A stretch of 64,000 nucleotides of DNA. Source: Nocardioides potassii. GTDB taxonomy: Bacteria; Actinomycetota; Actinomycetes; Propionibacteriales; Nocardioidaceae. The stretch lies in contig NZ_JAKJHZ010000011.1 of assembly GCF_021648885.1 (NCBI RefSeq), forward strand, positions 62,001-126,000, written 5' to 3'. The first letter of the stretch is position 1; every line of letters starts with the position of its first letter. Of this stretch, positions 3,628-60,315 are shown in pieces. Below the pieces are notes generated by a model. The model did not search any database. It worked only from the letters and a program-made list of their open reading frames with translations, and had not been told where the DNA came from. A program made the position numbers and the translations under genes.

Positions 3628-4155
3628 TCAGGTCGTCGGCACCCAGTAGCGGCGCTTGAGGCCGCGGACGTCCTCCAGCACCCCGCCGCACGCCTCGATC
3701 ACCCGGATGGAGCCGACGTTGTCGTCGTCGCAGGTGACCAGGGCGGGGTCGATCCCGAGGGCGAGGGCCCACGGCAGCGCGGCGCGCAGCATCGCGGTCG
3801 CGTGGCCCTCGCGCCGGCGCGTCGGACGGACGTCGTACCCGATGTGGCCGCCGACGTCGAGCAGGAAGTCGTTGAGGACGTGGCGGATCGCGATGCGGCC
3901 CAGGTAGTCGTGGCCGTCGACCCACCACAGGGTCGTGCACGGCACGTGCCAGTCCGGCCGCGGGCTGTCGAGCAGCGCATCCGCCTTCACGGCCTCGACG
4001 AAGGTGGCGAACCTCTCCGGGTCCTGCCAGCCGGGGGCGTTGACGTCGATCCAGGCAGCCGTCTGGCTGTTCTCCGCTCCCTCGGCGACGAACTCGTCCA
4101 TCGCCTCGAGGAACGAGGTCATCACGGACGTGGTCGGCAGCACGAGCTCGGGCAT
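3628..4155 (-). CDS. GNAT family N-acetyltransferase
   Basis: A 175-residue single-domain acetyltransferase. The acetyl-CoA loop is the segment 'GYDVRPTRRREGHATAMLRAAL' (R-x-x-G-x-A type), followed by 'GIDPALVTCDDDNVGSIRVIEACGG', a typical beta5-alpha4 N-x-x-S motif of GNATs. Related proteins are annotated as predicted acetyltransferases; the acceptor is unknown. Its start codon lies 6 nt after a CAGGAT hexamer on the minus strand, suggesting a leaderless transcript. A 61-bp palindrome (4195-4255) separates it from the upstream operon on the same strand. Confidence 0.82.
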   Translation of the reverse strand: MPELVLPTTSVMTSFLEAMDEFVAEGAENSQTAAWIDVNAPGWQDPERFATFVEAVKADALLDSPRPDWHVPCTTLWWVDGHDYLGRIAIRHVLNDFLLDVGGHIGYDVRPTRRREGHATAMLRAALPWALALGIDPALVTCDDDNVGSIRVIEACGGVLEDVRGLKRRYWVPTT

Positions 4156-53661: not shown

Positions 53662-55548
53662 GTGCGGATGCGGGGAGAGATGCGCGCGCCGGCGCGCGCC
53701 AGGGGGCCGGCGCGGATCTGGGTCGGAGCCGCAGCCGTGGTGCTCGCGACGTCGGCGTTCGTGGCGTACGACGTCGGTGGCGCGCCCGATGCGCCGCGGA
53801 GCGCGGCCTTCGCCGAACCGGTGCGCAACGCCACCGTGGTGATCGAGCAGGGCGGCGCCCGCAAGGGCTTCGCGACCAAGGCCGTCACCGTCTCCGGCGG
53901 CGGCACCGTCACGGTGGTCAACCTCGACTCGATGGACCACACCTTCACCTCGGTCGCCAAGGGGGCCGACGGCCTGCCGCTGTTCGACGTCCGCGTCACC
54001 GCCGGCACGACCGCCACGGTGCCCGGCATCGAGGCGCTCGCGGCCGGCGACTTCGCGTTCTACTGCAAGTTCCACCCGGGCATGCGCGGCGTGCTCACCG
54101 TTGCCGGAGCCGGCGGCGGCGTCGAGCCCGAGCGCCCGACCTTCGACCAGCCGCTCGTGGTGCCGCCGACGGAGCGAGGCGCCGACGTACGGCTCGAGAT
54201 GAGGCGGGCGCTCGTGCGCACCATGCCGGACGGCCCACGGACGTCGATGTGGACCTTCGACGGCACCTACCCCGGCCCCACCATCCGGCGCCGCGGCGGC
54301 CAGGGCACCCACGTCACCGTCGTCAACCACCTGCCCAAGGGCGCGGGCGCGACGTCCACGCACCTGCACGGCGACCACCACGCGGCGAAGGACGACGGGC
54401 AGCCCACCACGCAGCTCGTCCACCGGGGCCAGAGTCGGACCTACGACTACCCGCTGACCGTCGACGGCAAGGCGACCCCGGGCTCGTTCTTCTGGTACCA
54501 CGACCACCGGATGGACCGCACCGCGCGCAACAACTGGCGCGGCCTGCAGGGCATGTTCATCGTGACCGACCCGCCGATGAAGGGCGTGCGGCTGCCGAGC
54601 GGCGCGCGCGACGTCCCGCTGATGATCTCCGAGCGCTCGTTCACCGCCGGCAACCAGCTCACGAACCCCTTCGCCGACGGACCGGAGATGGTGCACGGCT
54701 CGGGGCACGACGAGATGTCGTGGACCGGCGACCTCGCCCCGCCCAACGACGCCACCGTGGGGGACACGGTGCTCGTCAACGGTCGCGCGGCGCCTTACCT
54801 CGACGTGTCCGCCACCCGCTACCGGCTCCGCCTGCTGAACTCCTCGCCGTTCTCGAGCTACAACCTCACGCTCTCCGACGGCCGACCGATCCTGCAGATC
54901 GGGACGGGGAGCGGCCTGCTCCCCCGCGCGGTCGTCCGCTCCTCGGTGCTCCTCGGCCCGGCCCAGCGCGCCGACGTGATCGTCGACTTCAGCGGCGCGA
55001 CCGGCAAGGACATCGTCCTCGAGTCGGTTCCTGCCGCGATCGGCAGCACGGGCGACGACGCCCGCGCGGCCTCCGTGATGGAGTTCCGGGTCGGTGAACG
55101 CGCGAGCGACCCCTCACGCCTCCCCTCACGCCTCCCCTCCCCCGCGCTGGTCTCGCCGGTCCCGAAGAAGGTCGCCAAGACCTGGACGTTCGGCCTGCAC
55201 CAAGGGCACCACGGCAGCGCCTGGACCATCAACGGCGAGTCGTTCGACCCGACCCGCGTCGACCACCGCGCGAAGCTCGGCACCGTCGAGCGCTGGCGCT
55301 TCCGCAACACCAGCGACGTCACCCACTACGTCCACGTCCACGCCGAGCAGTGGCGCACCGTCCTGCGCGACGGCAAGGCGCCCCCGCCCTGGGAGCAGGG
55401 ACTCGAGGACACCTGGCGCCTCGAGCCCGGCGAAGTCGTCGAGGTGGCCGCCCGCTTCACCGACTACACCGGCGCCTTCATGATCCACTGCCACATGCTC
55501 GACCACGAGGACCACGGGATGATGTCCCGCTTCGACGTCGTCCGCTGA
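53662..55548 (+). CDS. Exported multicopper oxidase with N-terminal cupredoxin domain
   Basis: A 628-residue laccase-like oxidase. GTG 53662 is chosen because GGAGGAGGGG lies 7 nt upstream; ATG 53668 is also in frame. After a membrane/signal segment ('IWVGAAAVVLATSAFVAYDVGG') comes a plastocyanin-like domain with H93, C135, H138 and M141 (FYCKFHPGM). Then the oxidase follows, with all four copper motifs: HLHGDHH (234-240), WYHDH (278-282), HYVHVHAEQW (555) and HCHMLDHEDHGMM (609-621). The extra cupredoxin module could pass electrons to the T1 site or be structural. Substrate unknown; copper, phenols or metal ions are candidates. Confidence 0.9.
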   Translation: MRMRGEMRAPARARGPARIWVGAAAVVLATSAFVAYDVGGAPDAPRSAAFAEPVRNATVVIEQGGARKGFATKAVTVSGGGTVTVVNLDSMDHTFTSVAKGADGLPLFDVRVTAGTTATVPGIEALAAGDFAFYCKFHPGMRGVLTVAGAGGGVEPERPTFDQPLVVPPTERGADVRLEMRRALVRTMPDGPRTSMWTFDGTYPGPTIRRRGGQGTHVTVVNHLPKGAGATSTHLHGDHHAAKDDGQPTTQLVHRGQSRTYDYPLTVDGKATPGSFFWYHDHRMDRTARNNWRGLQGMFIVTDPPMKGVRLPSGARDVPLMISERSFTAGNQLTNPFADGPEMVHGSGHDEMSWTGDLAPPNDATVGDTVLVNGRAAPYLDVSATRYRLRLLNSSPFSSYNLTLSDGRPILQIGTGSGLLPRAVVRSSVLLGPAQRADVIVDFSGATGKDIVLESVPAAIGSTGDDARAASVMEFRVGERASDPSRLPSRLPSPALVSPVPKKVAKTWTFGLHQGHHGSAWTINGESFDPTRVDHRAKLGTVERWRFRNTSDVTHYVHVHAEQWRTVLRDGKAPPPWEQGLEDTWRLEPGEVVEVAARFTDYTGAFMIHCHMLDHEDHGMMSRFDVVR

Positions 55549-55565
55549 CGACATCTGTAGCTCCT

Positions 55566-55647
55566 TCACCATGGGATGTAGGCGAATGTGCACTTCCCTT
55601 CGTCAACTGACATGGGGAAGTGGACGGCGGCCAACATCCCATGGTGA
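55566..55647. repeat. Hairpin element, copy 1 (flanks AbiEi/nuclease-like gene)
   Basis: An 82-bp element with perfect 13-bp terminal inverted repeats (tcaccatgggatg / catcccatggtga) and a perfect inner stem cacttccc / gggaagtg (55591-55598, 55615-55622). It matches the copy at 56758-56831 at 60 of 74 aligned positions without a gap; blocks aggcgaa, tgcacttccc, cgtcaactgacatggg and acatcccatggtga are identical. It lies 17 nt after the multicopper oxidase stop and 124 nt before the next gene. Confidence 0.9.
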
Positions 55648-55771
55648 GTGATCGCGAGCGATCCGGCCGGGTTCAGCCACGAGACGTCCACAGCGAGCAA
55701 CCGGACGCGGTCGTCCACAGGGGCGCCGTACGACGGGTGCGTTGGCGCCTCGGTCGTCCGACGATCGCCGG

Positions 55772-56716
55772 ATGGACGATCCGCTACGCGCCATCGCACT
55801 GGAGCTCGGTTTCTTCACCCGCGCCCACGCGCGGAACGCCGGCTATGACGACCGCGCCATCACCCGGGCAGCGCGTGCACGCGCGTGGCACCGGATCCGA
55901 CGCGGTTACTACACGTTCCCCGACATCTGGTCGGGAGCGACCGACGAGGAACGGCACCTCATGACATGTCGAGCCGTGCTCGACTCGCTTGGTGACGCTG
56001 TCGCCCTGAGCCACACGTCGGGCTGCGTCGCCCAGCGGGTCGACGTCTGGGGCCTGCCACTGGACGTCGTACATGTCACGCGGCTCGACGGCGGTGCCGG
56101 CCGCATCGAGGCCGGCGTGGTCCATCACGAGGGCCTGGTCCTTGATCACGAGGTGAGCGAGGTCGACGGCATGCGCGTCCTCGCACCACAGCGTTGCACG
56201 CTCGAGGCGGGCTCTCTCGGCTCTCCGGAGGCCGCCCTCGTCCTGCTGAACTCGTGCCTCCATCGTCAGCTCTGCACGTCGGACGAGGTGTGCACCCAGT
56301 TCGACGTGATGGCTCACTGGCCGCACGTCCGACACCTTCACGTCCCGGTGCGGATGTGCACGGCGAAGGCGGAGTCGGTCGGCGAGAGTCGCGGGCTGTG
56401 GCTGTTCTGGACCCAGCACCTGCCGGCGCCGACGCTCCAGCACGAGGTGCACGACAGCGCCGGCCGCCTGGTCGGTCGCACTGACTACGCCTGGCTCAAG
56501 CACCGCGGGCTCGGCGAGTTCGACGGCAAGGTCAAGTACGGCCGACTCCTCAAGCCCGGTCAGCATCCGGGTGAGGTCGTCTTCGAGGAGAAGCGACGCG
56601 AGGACCTCCTGCGCGAGGCGACGGGATCGTGGATGGTGCGGCTCGTGTGGTCGGATCTCGACCACCCCGCCGAGACCGCGGCTCGCATCCGTCGGTTCCT
56701 CGTCCGCGCGAGCTGA
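55772..56716 (+). CDS. AbiEi-type N-terminal domain / PD-(D/E)XK nuclease-like protein
   Basis: A 314-residue protein. The N-terminus ('LGFFTRAHARNAGYDDRAITRAARARAWHRIRRGYY', residues 12-47) resembles the AbiEi antitoxin winged-helix domain. The C-terminus has a DUF559/PD-(D/E)XK-like core: a helix with 'GESRGLWLFW', Asp238 (GRTDYAW), then Glu249-x-Asp251-x-Lys253 (GEFDGKVKY), and 'EEKRREDLLREATGSWMVRLVWSDL'. The cognate AbiEii toxin gene is absent, so this is not a visible toxin-antitoxin pair. The start at ATG 55772 follows homologues. The gene is bracketed by two copies of an 80-bp hairpin element, which suggests a mobile or element-associated cassette. Confidence 0.8.
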   Translation: MDDPLRAIALELGFFTRAHARNAGYDDRAITRAARARAWHRIRRGYYTFPDIWSGATDEERHLMTCRAVLDSLGDAVALSHTSGCVAQRVDVWGLPLDVVHVTRLDGGAGRIEAGVVHHEGLVLDHEVSEVDGMRVLAPQRCTLEAGSLGSPEAALVLLNSCLHRQLCTSDEVCTQFDVMAHWPHVRHLHVPVRMCTAKAESVGESRGLWLFWTQHLPAPTLQHEVHDSAGRLVGRTDYAWLKHRGLGEFDGKVKYGRLLKPGQHPGEVVFEEKRREDLLREATGSWMVRLVWSDLDHPAETAARIRRFLVRAS

Positions 56717-56757
56717 GCCCATCGCCGTGTGCCCACGACCACGCGGTGGCCGTCCAG

Positions 56758-56834
56758 CATGGGATGGAGGCGAACATGCACTTCCCGGCGTCAACTGACA
56801 TGGGTAGGTGTCCATTGACCGACATCCCATGGTG
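56758..56834. repeat. Hairpin element, copy 2
   Basis: Second copy, in the same orientation, 41 nt after the nuclease-like gene and 47 nt before the NUDIX gene. Terminal arms catgggatg / catcccatg (9 bp) remain. The inner stem is cacttccc opposite gggtaggtg, which pairs with one mismatch and a G-U. Same length as copy 1 with no indels; differences concentrate in the 3' part of the interior. Confidence 0.9.
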
Positions 56835-56881
56835 AACGATCACAGACGCGACCACCTCCGACGCCTCGCTAGGGTGGGAGA

Positions 56882-57622
56882 GTGCCGAGCCCCATCACCC
56901 TGACCTCCGCTGACGGGGTCGCTCGGCTGGAGTGGACGGGCGAGGTCAGCACCGACGAGCTGCGGCGGGTGGTCGCGGAGGCACTCACCGGGCACACCCG
57001 GGTCGAGACCCACGTCGCGAGCGACGACCCCGCCGGGCAGCGGGCGGCGACGTGGGCCGGCCTGCACCGCGAGGGCGTACGGCGTGGGGTGGGGGCGGAC
57101 GGTGAGCCGCAGGACCGCATCGTCTACGCGCGCCTGGTGACGGACGCGCCGGTCAACGAGCCGGGCGGCTTCCGCGCGCTGCTCAACTCCTTCCTCCCCC
57201 GCAAGCGGGCGATCTCGCAGATGCTCATCCGCGACGCGGACGGCCGGGTCCTGCTGTGCCAGCTGACCTACAAGCGCGACTGGGACCTGCCCGGCGGCAT
57301 CGTCGAGGTCGGCGAGTCACCGCGCACCGCCGTCCAGCGCGAGGTCGAGGAGGAGCTCGGGCTCGAGGTCGAGCCCGGCGGGCTGCTCCTCACCGACTGG
57401 CTGCCCCCGTGGGGTGGTTGGGACGACGCCGTCTGCCTCGTCTTCGACGGCGGCACCCTTGCTCCCGGGACCCTCGACGAGGTGGTCAAGCAGGAGCGGG
57501 AGATCCGTGACGTGCGCTTCTGCACCCTCGAAGAGGTGGACGAGCTGGCAGCCGACTTCACCGCCCGCCGCGTGCGGGCCGCAGTGGGCGGCGCGCAGCC
57601 GTATACGGAGTCCGGTCGCTGA
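56882..57622 (+). CDS. NUDIX hydrolase
   Basis: A 246-residue protein with a C-terminal NUDIX domain. The box starts at Gly138, 'GGIVEVGESPRTAVQREVEEELGLEV', with the complete G-x5-E-x7-R-E-x2-E-E-x-G pattern. The N-terminal ~95 residues ('LTSADGVARLEWTGEVSTDELRRVVAEAL...') form a separate, unidentified alpha/beta segment. Hydrolyses some nucleoside-diphosphate derivative; the substrate is unknown. The GTG start is exactly 6 nt after TAGGGT, predicting a leaderless mRNA. Converging context none; ppdK follows in the same direction. Confidence 0.88.
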   Translation: MPSPITLTSADGVARLEWTGEVSTDELRRVVAEALTGHTRVETHVASDDPAGQRAATWAGLHREGVRRGVGADGEPQDRIVYARLVTDAPVNEPGGFRALLNSFLPRKRAISQMLIRDADGRVLLCQLTYKRDWDLPGGIVEVGESPRTAVQREVEEELGLEVEPGGLLLTDWLPPWGGWDDAVCLVFDGGTLAPGTLDEVVKQEREIRDVRFCTLEEVDELAADFTARRVRAAVGGAQPYTESGR

Positions 57623-57636
57623 GGCAGGATGCCTGC

Positions 57637-60315
<2,679 letters not shown>

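Follow-up and report, generated by a model that had tools for sequence, protein, structure and literature searches.

A gene of Nocardioides potassii, whose product is predicted to be a fusion of an AbiEi-like half and a Vsr/I-Bth0305I-like nuclease, lies between two direct copies of a long palindrome, and this bracketed unit is probably a small mobile element that follows a REPtron-like logic, with a Vsr-like nuclease replacing the HUH transposase. While the binding, cutting and copying of the palindrome are inferred, the pairing of gene and palindromes, the paralogue-specific palindromes, their dispersal, and the presence or absence of the unit and of solitary copies between species were all observed. 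The hairpin-bracketed nuclease family points to an undescribed actinobacterial mobile-element system. The unit is situated in the analysed stretch of 64,000 nucleotides (the window) and consists, together with its neighbours, of the following features, where R1 denotes a covariance model built from the nine palindrome copies of the window genome:

53632..55548, + strand: left neighbour, a multicopper oxidase (PF07731/PF07732), outside the unit
55549..56866, no strand assigned: inserted unit, approximate limits; the stretch missing in G074, G007, G020, G076 and G092
55567..55653, no strand assigned: upstream palindrome copy, a near-symmetric palindrome of ~84 bp (R1 model match, 84 bits)
55654..55771, + strand: spacer from the upstream palindrome to the gene start, with like spacing at many homologous loci
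55772..56716, + strand: gene for a 314-aa protein, predicted to combine an AbiEi-like N-terminal half with a Vsr/I-Bth0305I-like nuclease
55796..55921, + strand: AbiEi_4 segment, residues 9-50 (PF13338, E 2.3e-5; 24.8 bits, the cut-off being 25)
56369..56713, + strand: putative Vsr-like nuclease domain, residues 200-314 (from the predicted structure and conserved residues)
56755..56841, no strand assigned: downstream palindrome copy, in the orientation of the upstream copy (R1 model match, 66 bits)
56882..57622, + strand: right neighbour, a NUDIX protein (PF00293), outside the unit

The earlier note on this DNA had described two intergenic copies in the same orientation around one gene, and these were confirmed as 87 nt each, 80% identical without any indel, and 1188 bp apart from start to start. 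Local alignment of one flank against the other scored 89, compared with a maximum of 28 in 2000 shuffles of the two intergenic flanks. Judging from the sequence, the gene most likely starts at the ATG at 55772 (MDDPLR..), and the upstream TTG at 55742 is disfavoured, in agreement with homologues that begin with MDPLR. A toxin partner gene (AbiEii nucleotidyltransferase) is absent beside the gene at the window locus, where the neighbours are the multicopper oxidase and the NUDIX protein.

The upstream copy is composed of outer arms CACCATGGGATGT / ACATCCCATGGTG, inner arms CACTTCCC / GGGAAGTG and the centre GTCA-nn-TGAC. All nine genomic copies align without indels, with CACCATGGGATGT, CACTTCCC, GTCA-nn-TGAC and their complements as conserved blocks and variable spacers in between. 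The sequence cgtcaactgacatggg, which had been taken for an invariant core, is common to the two bracketing copies only, and it is GTCA-nn-TGAC that is kept across the nine. Each copy had also been described as a hairpin, which agrees with the folding analysis: none of 200 shuffles folds as well as the upstream copy on either strand (z -7.7 and -6.1), nor as well as the downstream copy on the + strand (z -4.2), though on the - strand the latter folds weakly (z -1.9, with 9 of 200 shuffles equally good). An Rfam scan of positions 54500-58000 gave nothing at the gathering score, and the sole match at E<=5, to a microRNA (E 0.9), was judged to be chance. Paired changes among the nine copies of the window genome showed no excess and were slightly fewer than in shuffles, which counts against the mobile-element reading. 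Across species (56 sequences), dyad symmetry is kept by double changes, with a score of 6.6 versus 2.2 for shuffled sequences (maximum 2.6), and 84% of the pairs in the palindrome are kept versus 72% after shuffling; the double-change counts are inflated by kinship among these sequences. By inspection, no GTAG-type tetranucleotide was found at the foot of the palindrome, neither in the nine-copy alignment nor in the 56-sequence consensus.

Pfam assigns only AbiEi_4 to the window protein, just under the cut-off, and no transposase domain, and NCBIfam has no family for it. AbiEi_4 is found at E<=0.1 in 70 of the 76 family members, and the PADLOC AbiEi model matches the window protein (E 4e-14). 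A profile search of the sequences of solved structures returned a single match, at E 0.88, which was judged to be chance. The AlphaFold2 model of the protein (mean pLDDT 95.4) was obtained with an alignment of 76 sequences, namely the window and 75 of 80 named homologue loci, from which L142 and L178 (short frame), L165 (early stop), L159 and L170 were left out. In this model, residues 200-314 resemble the catalytic domain of I-Bth0305I (3r3p; Z 11.8, rmsd 2.4, 96 aligned) and Vsr (1cw0; Z 10.2), and a mitoribosome protein (Z 9.6) is ranked between these two matches. The nuclease matches of Foldseek are weak (E 0.17 and 0.20 for I-Bth0305I and Vsr, range 0.17-0.36), as are those of PF18741 and PF04480, found in two and one of the 76 members, respectively. 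Residues 1-197 match AbiEi (6y8q; rmsd 6.4 with 178 aligned, Z 8.8), for which Foldseek gives E 2.7e-4, and Rv2827c is matched by residues 1-216 (1zel; Z 6.8, a range rated common by the comparison tool). An AbiEi-like winged helix had already been suggested for this protein, and an AbiEi-like half is upheld by the AbiEi_4 matches in the family and by the structural match to 6y8q; according to these predictions, the window protein joins such a half to a Vsr/I-Bth0305I-like nuclease.

The PD-(D/E)XK core that had been proposed does not stand as claimed, the nuclease resembling instead the Vsr/EDxHD branch. The residue pattern of the nuclease is E205, D238, E249-x-D251-G-x-x-K255, E273 and R276. 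Among these, E205, E249, D251, G252, K255, E273 and R276 are invariant in alignments of 59 and 76 sequences, and D238 is invariant in the 59 and at least 90% conserved in the 76. The catalytic residues suggested before were D238 and D251-x-K253, of which the two aspartates hold but K253 is not conserved. The expected conservation of acidic residues of a putative EDxHD/Vsr-like active site is met in the alignments (the EDxHD pattern was not superposed). An internal stop was found in only two of the homologue matches listed. A shared fold alone is no proof of nuclease function.

BLAST of the window genome (4.28 Mb) with the palindrome, the genome-wide search for which the earlier note had called, yielded nine palindromes, i.e., the bracketing pair and seven solitary copies, and also three weak matches, each <20 nt. 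The genome carries four genes of the nuclease family, and the palindromes of the other three paralogues, which differ from one another, are multicopy as well, with at least about 14, 10 and 16 places. These numbers are lower bounds, since 40 of 61 first-look candidates were scored, with short partial matches included, and for one paralogue (L030) only one of the two flanks is present in the copy list. As well, in four genomes of other genera the repeat of the locus is multicopy (at least about 4 places for L195, 44 for L193, 18 for L174 and 7 for L192), and each of these genomes matched essentially no segment of the joined query but its own; these counts are lower bounds too, with 40 of 162 first-look candidates scored in G344. 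According to a heuristic gene call, 36 of 45 solitary copies are no more than 40 nt away from a 3' end, and none of the 45 lies between divergent genes. The 45 copies comprise 24 of the own genome (all four families) and 21 of other genomes (R1), and the survey started from 26 own-genome and 26 other-genome loci, six of which were undetermined; the other-genome loci L047, L052 and L054 are flanking copies, and L054, which was among the called ones, was removed from the counts. Classical REPs between convergent genes are described as lying mostly <20 bp from 3' ends in the part of the source available (PMC3733652).

R1 matches occur in at least 33 of the 98 genomes of the genus, and pairs of matches spaced about 1.15-1.2 kb recur among these genomes; for the first four such pairs, the gene in between encodes a homologue 52-73% identical to the window protein. 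At 33 loci, namely those of the best homologues, the window and its three own paralogues, R1 is present on both sides in 13, on one side in 2 and on neither in 18, and the 13 all belong to the 14 homologues with the best scores (window included). Sixteen of the 80 named loci have R1 on both sides, and L145, L149 and L127 have it at wider spacing. Among the matches listed, 15 of the 16 genomes whose homologue scores 290 bits or more contain R1, versus 18 of 82 others (Fisher p 7e-8 for the co-occurrence, with kinship ignored and flanking copies counted). The 18 genomes with R1 and no close homologue, as far as the matches listed go, count against the mobile-element reading, and the R1 counts are biased toward close relatives because the model derives from the copies of the window genome itself. 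Within the R1 clade (16 loci), the mean identity between copies is 0.86 within a locus versus 0.63 between loci, and palindrome identity is only weakly related to protein identity (Spearman 0.22, Mantel p 0.05). One genome, G058, has at least 18 R1 matches on both strands, yet no homologue at E<=1e-45. For such R1-bearing genomes without a close homologue, gene loss and mobilisation in trans are possible readings.

Many homologues without R1 have long palindromes of other sequence on both flanks. With a flank pair defined by an upstream-versus-downstream alignment score of at least 40, 55 of 59 homologue loci in a first set are positive, versus none of 30 window genes used as control (maximum 32). 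In a second set, 57 of 78 homologue loci reach this score versus 1 of 98 genes that neighbour the homologues in these loci (Fisher p 3e-27, kinship ignored). The first set excludes L082, whose contig begins 15 nt before the match, and 20 loci of the work on it were hand-picked down the ranked homologue list and are non-random. The second set represents the 80 named loci without L159 and L170, which have no downstream flank, and covers Nocardioides, Marmoricola, Aeromicrobium, Mumia, Rhodococcus, Nocardia, Skermania, Jiangella, Nakamurella and others; seven loci are common to both sets, without which the second amounts to 51 of 71. The homologue search behind the named loci matched at least 555 stretches. 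The earlier note held that its proposed link between hairpin and nuclease family would be refuted if the hairpin occurred throughout the genome with no enrichment near the family, or if homologues never had flanking copies. Both points were examined, and the outcome, R1 at 13 of 33 loci and repeats of any sequence at the frequencies given above, favoured the link, which is supported. Only one instance had been seen at that time; at the level of sequence the pattern extends beyond it, with palindromes that vary from subfamily to subfamily, and the action of the protein on the hairpin is inferred.

Six of the 21 misses in the second set have a pair at greater distance, with the upstream copy about 1 kb ahead of the gene (L127) or the downstream copy about 0.55 kb past it (L145, L146, L148, L149 and L182). 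No pair was found even in the wider search at 15 of the 78 loci, seven of which belong to Blastococcus/Geodermatophilaceae, nor was a flank pair detected at L095 and L102 of the first set, and these loci count against the mobile-element reading. The repeats of 56 positive loci (56 rather than 57, the downstream flank being begun at a slightly different base) form 35, 40 or 47 sequence clusters, depending on the threshold. Forty of the 56 are more self-complementary than all of their own shuffles, and the 16 that are not count against the same reading. The prediction that a hairpin pair about 1.2 kb apart would enclose a nuclease failed in a Rhodococcus contig (L280, 495-1822), where two hairpins 1.26 kb apart bracket a gene called cation-efflux-like by eye from its translation, and no nuclease homologue. 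This pair around a non-nuclease gene is a further point against the mobile-element reading.

Empty sites in relatives, to which attention had been drawn as a check, were found. In G074, a near relative, the oxidase stop codon almost abuts the NUDIX upstream region and the ~1.3-kb unit is missing; it is also missing at the matching place in G007, G020, G076 and G092, and in G045 and G052 another hairpin occupies this place. The solitary sites were compared by the distance separating their flanks, which is 104 nt in the window genome. At L002, this distance is 22 nt in G074 and 7 nt in G045. L005 is an empty site in G074 as well as in G070, and so is L006 in G073, while G074, G007 and G095 contain other sequence at L006. 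For L003, G045 has 24 nt, and G074, G073, G083, G007 and G070 carry other sequence of 98-133 nt, partly visibly hairpin-forming. At L007, G045 has 19 nt, G074 and G021 contain other sequence, and G070 shows an R1 match; at L012, other sequence is present in G083 and G070 and an R1 match in G074. No target-site duplication, looked for by eye, and no exact junction could be made out at the empty sites, where the flanks are only about 80-90% identical, and this counts against the mobile-element reading; at these divergent sites, neither the palindrome nor a clear recombined target was seen. Based on shared neighbours, 39 close loci fall into 20 groups, 10 of which contain one locus each, so that some neighbour sharing could be concealed by short flanks.

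As in REPtrons (TnpA-REP/RAYT), for which the sources were available in part, a single gene is flanked by palindromes that are also dispersed intergenically, the palindromes lie just behind 3' ends (PMC3733652), and enzymes and palindromes form cognate pairs (PMC8266576). However, REPtrons possess an HUH/Y1 transposase and a GTAG tag, whereas the window family has AbiEi-like and Vsr-like parts and its palindrome lacks the tag. REPs measure 20-50 nt compared with about 80 bp for the window palindrome; the window family has a lower copy number, with counts per genome of 4 to about 44 places (as lower bounds), and the location of its gene varies between species, whereas evidence for mobility of tnpA-REP is stated to be lacking in the accessible part of PMC8266576. 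The unit was not filed as a REPtron, because the defining HUH enzyme and GTAG tag are absent. Moreover, the Y1_Tnp domain (PF01797), the only one searched for in this respect, was detected in none of the 98 genomes of the genus, while 5 of 14 known genomes were positive as control, so a RAYT is not at hand to move the palindromes. TIRtrons, which consist of a RAYT-like gene with long inverted flank repeats, likewise have a single gene and repeats forming small dispersed families (PMC3733652, in part), but encode a tyrosine transposase that the window family does not.

I-Bth0305I and Vsr share with the window protein the fold of the predicted nuclease domain and the joining of a nuclease to a DNA-binding part. 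I-Bth0305I dimerises on a target of nearly 60 bp, as stated in the portion of PMC3943268 available. Unlike the window gene, which is bacterial, intergenic and located between two whole palindromes, it is encoded by an intron gene splitting one site, and the window family differs from both proteins in its dispersed solitary copies and its AbiEi-like DNA-binding half. The N-terminal half of the window protein aligns to AbiEi and Rv2827c, which, according to the available text of PMC7319586, bind inverted repeats in their own promoters; in contrast to these, the window gene has no toxin partner, and it has an extra nuclease domain as well as palindromes on both sides and dispersed. Within the open-access PMC literature, which leaves preprints and most subscription journals outside the scope and was searched with some narrow word combinations, the nuclease-palindrome pairing did not turn up.

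According to the mechanism that we infer, the AbiEi-like half would recognise and bind the palindrome, an inference made because AbiEi and Rv2827c bind inverted repeats. The Vsr/EDxHD-like half would then nick or cut the palindrome, either as duplex or as extruded hairpin, which is presumed because I-Bth0305I dimerises on its long target (PMC3943268, seen in part). Break repair or strand transfer may subsequently copy the palindrome into intergenic sites, and the whole bracketed unit would be copied too, less often than the palindrome alone. Insertions directly past stop codons would survive because they do least harm. Homing-like gene conversion and true transposition are indistinguishable from the present data.

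Alternatively, the palindromes might bind an AbiEi-type repressor that controls its own gene and, via the scattered copies, others, with the nuclease half incidental or degenerate. Such an operator function is suggested by the AbiEi-like N-terminal half and by the binding of AbiEi and Rv2827c to inverted repeats in their own promoters (PMC7319586, partial text), but a matching copy is also located downstream of the gene, the solitary copies are mostly past stop codons and never (0 of 45) between divergent genes, the nuclease residues are invariant, and both unit and solitary copies are gained or lost between species; we regard it as unlikely. It also seems improbable that the nuclease is a domesticated host protein, vertically kept as guardian or editor of the palindromes (in genome structure, mRNA 3' ends or defence) with little present mobility. 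Some neighbour groups are common to several species, all but two of the homologue matches listed have a frame free of internal stops, and AbiEi-type models of a defence collection match, all of which would suit a domesticated protein; however, there are 20 neighbour groups among 39 loci, empty sites in relatives and, at a few loci, a second gene inside the brackets. We give still less credit to ordinary terminators or REP-like repeats moved by other machinery, with the gene merely lying in repeat-rich intergenic DNA, since this idea, despite the position of most solitary copies at gene 3' ends, the hairpins of differing sequence between rplY and pth in the window genome and 12 relatives (by eye) and the pair around a non-nuclease gene in Rhodococcus L280, has to face pairs at 57 of 78 homologues versus 1 of 98 neighbour genes, an own palindrome for each paralogue of one genome, and the lack of Y1_Tnp, the one domain searched, in 98 genomes.

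Beyond the small mobile element favoured here for the window unit, a Vsr/EDxHD nuclease with an AbiEi-type half could drive a whole class of actinomycete palindromic repeats, each paralogue making and spreading its own, sometimes relocating the gene with cargo, without HUH chemistry; this is a conjecture in which doubt slightly outweighs confidence. In the available parts of the literature, the spread of REP-type palindromes is described as unresolved (PMC8266576), and one large REP class is reported without a dedicated transposase (PMC3733652). The family supplies testable nuclease-palindrome pairs outside HUH systems, four of them in one genome, and suggests a possible role for an abundant actinobacterial protein family that is labelled in databases by the AbiEi antitoxin domain. 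Provided that the pairs are specific, they would represent natural small nucleases recognising long palindromes, with a specificity swappable and measurable paralogue by paralogue.

Several further observations concern the places and contents of such units. In the rplY-pth gap (L013, L248-L259), a long hairpin is present in the window genome and the 12 relatives examined by eye; it is R1 in the window genome and G074 and another hairpin in the 11 further relatives. The place seems to be fixed while the hairpin turns over. The hairpin at the unit's place in the relatives' loci L241 and L247 is ~85 bp long, with arms around GGCAGTT / AACTGCC, and the oxidase-NUDIX gap of G083 (L246) contains another, longer insert of about 860 nt with no homologue of the window protein inside. 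Between the same neighbours, the unit was found in both orientations (L124, L126, L128 and L130 versus L144 and L151), through either inversion between the bracketing palindromes or independent insertion. Two loci, L142 and L178, have short open frames (154 and 269 codons) with the palindrome pair still present and are possibly decaying gene copies. Finally, L146, L148 and L149 (about 4005-4110) possess, between the nuclease gene and the downstream palindrome, a second frame of 191 codons with a P-loop, which in L148 matches AAA_33 and of which L145 has a shorter open stretch; it is possible cargo of these four units.
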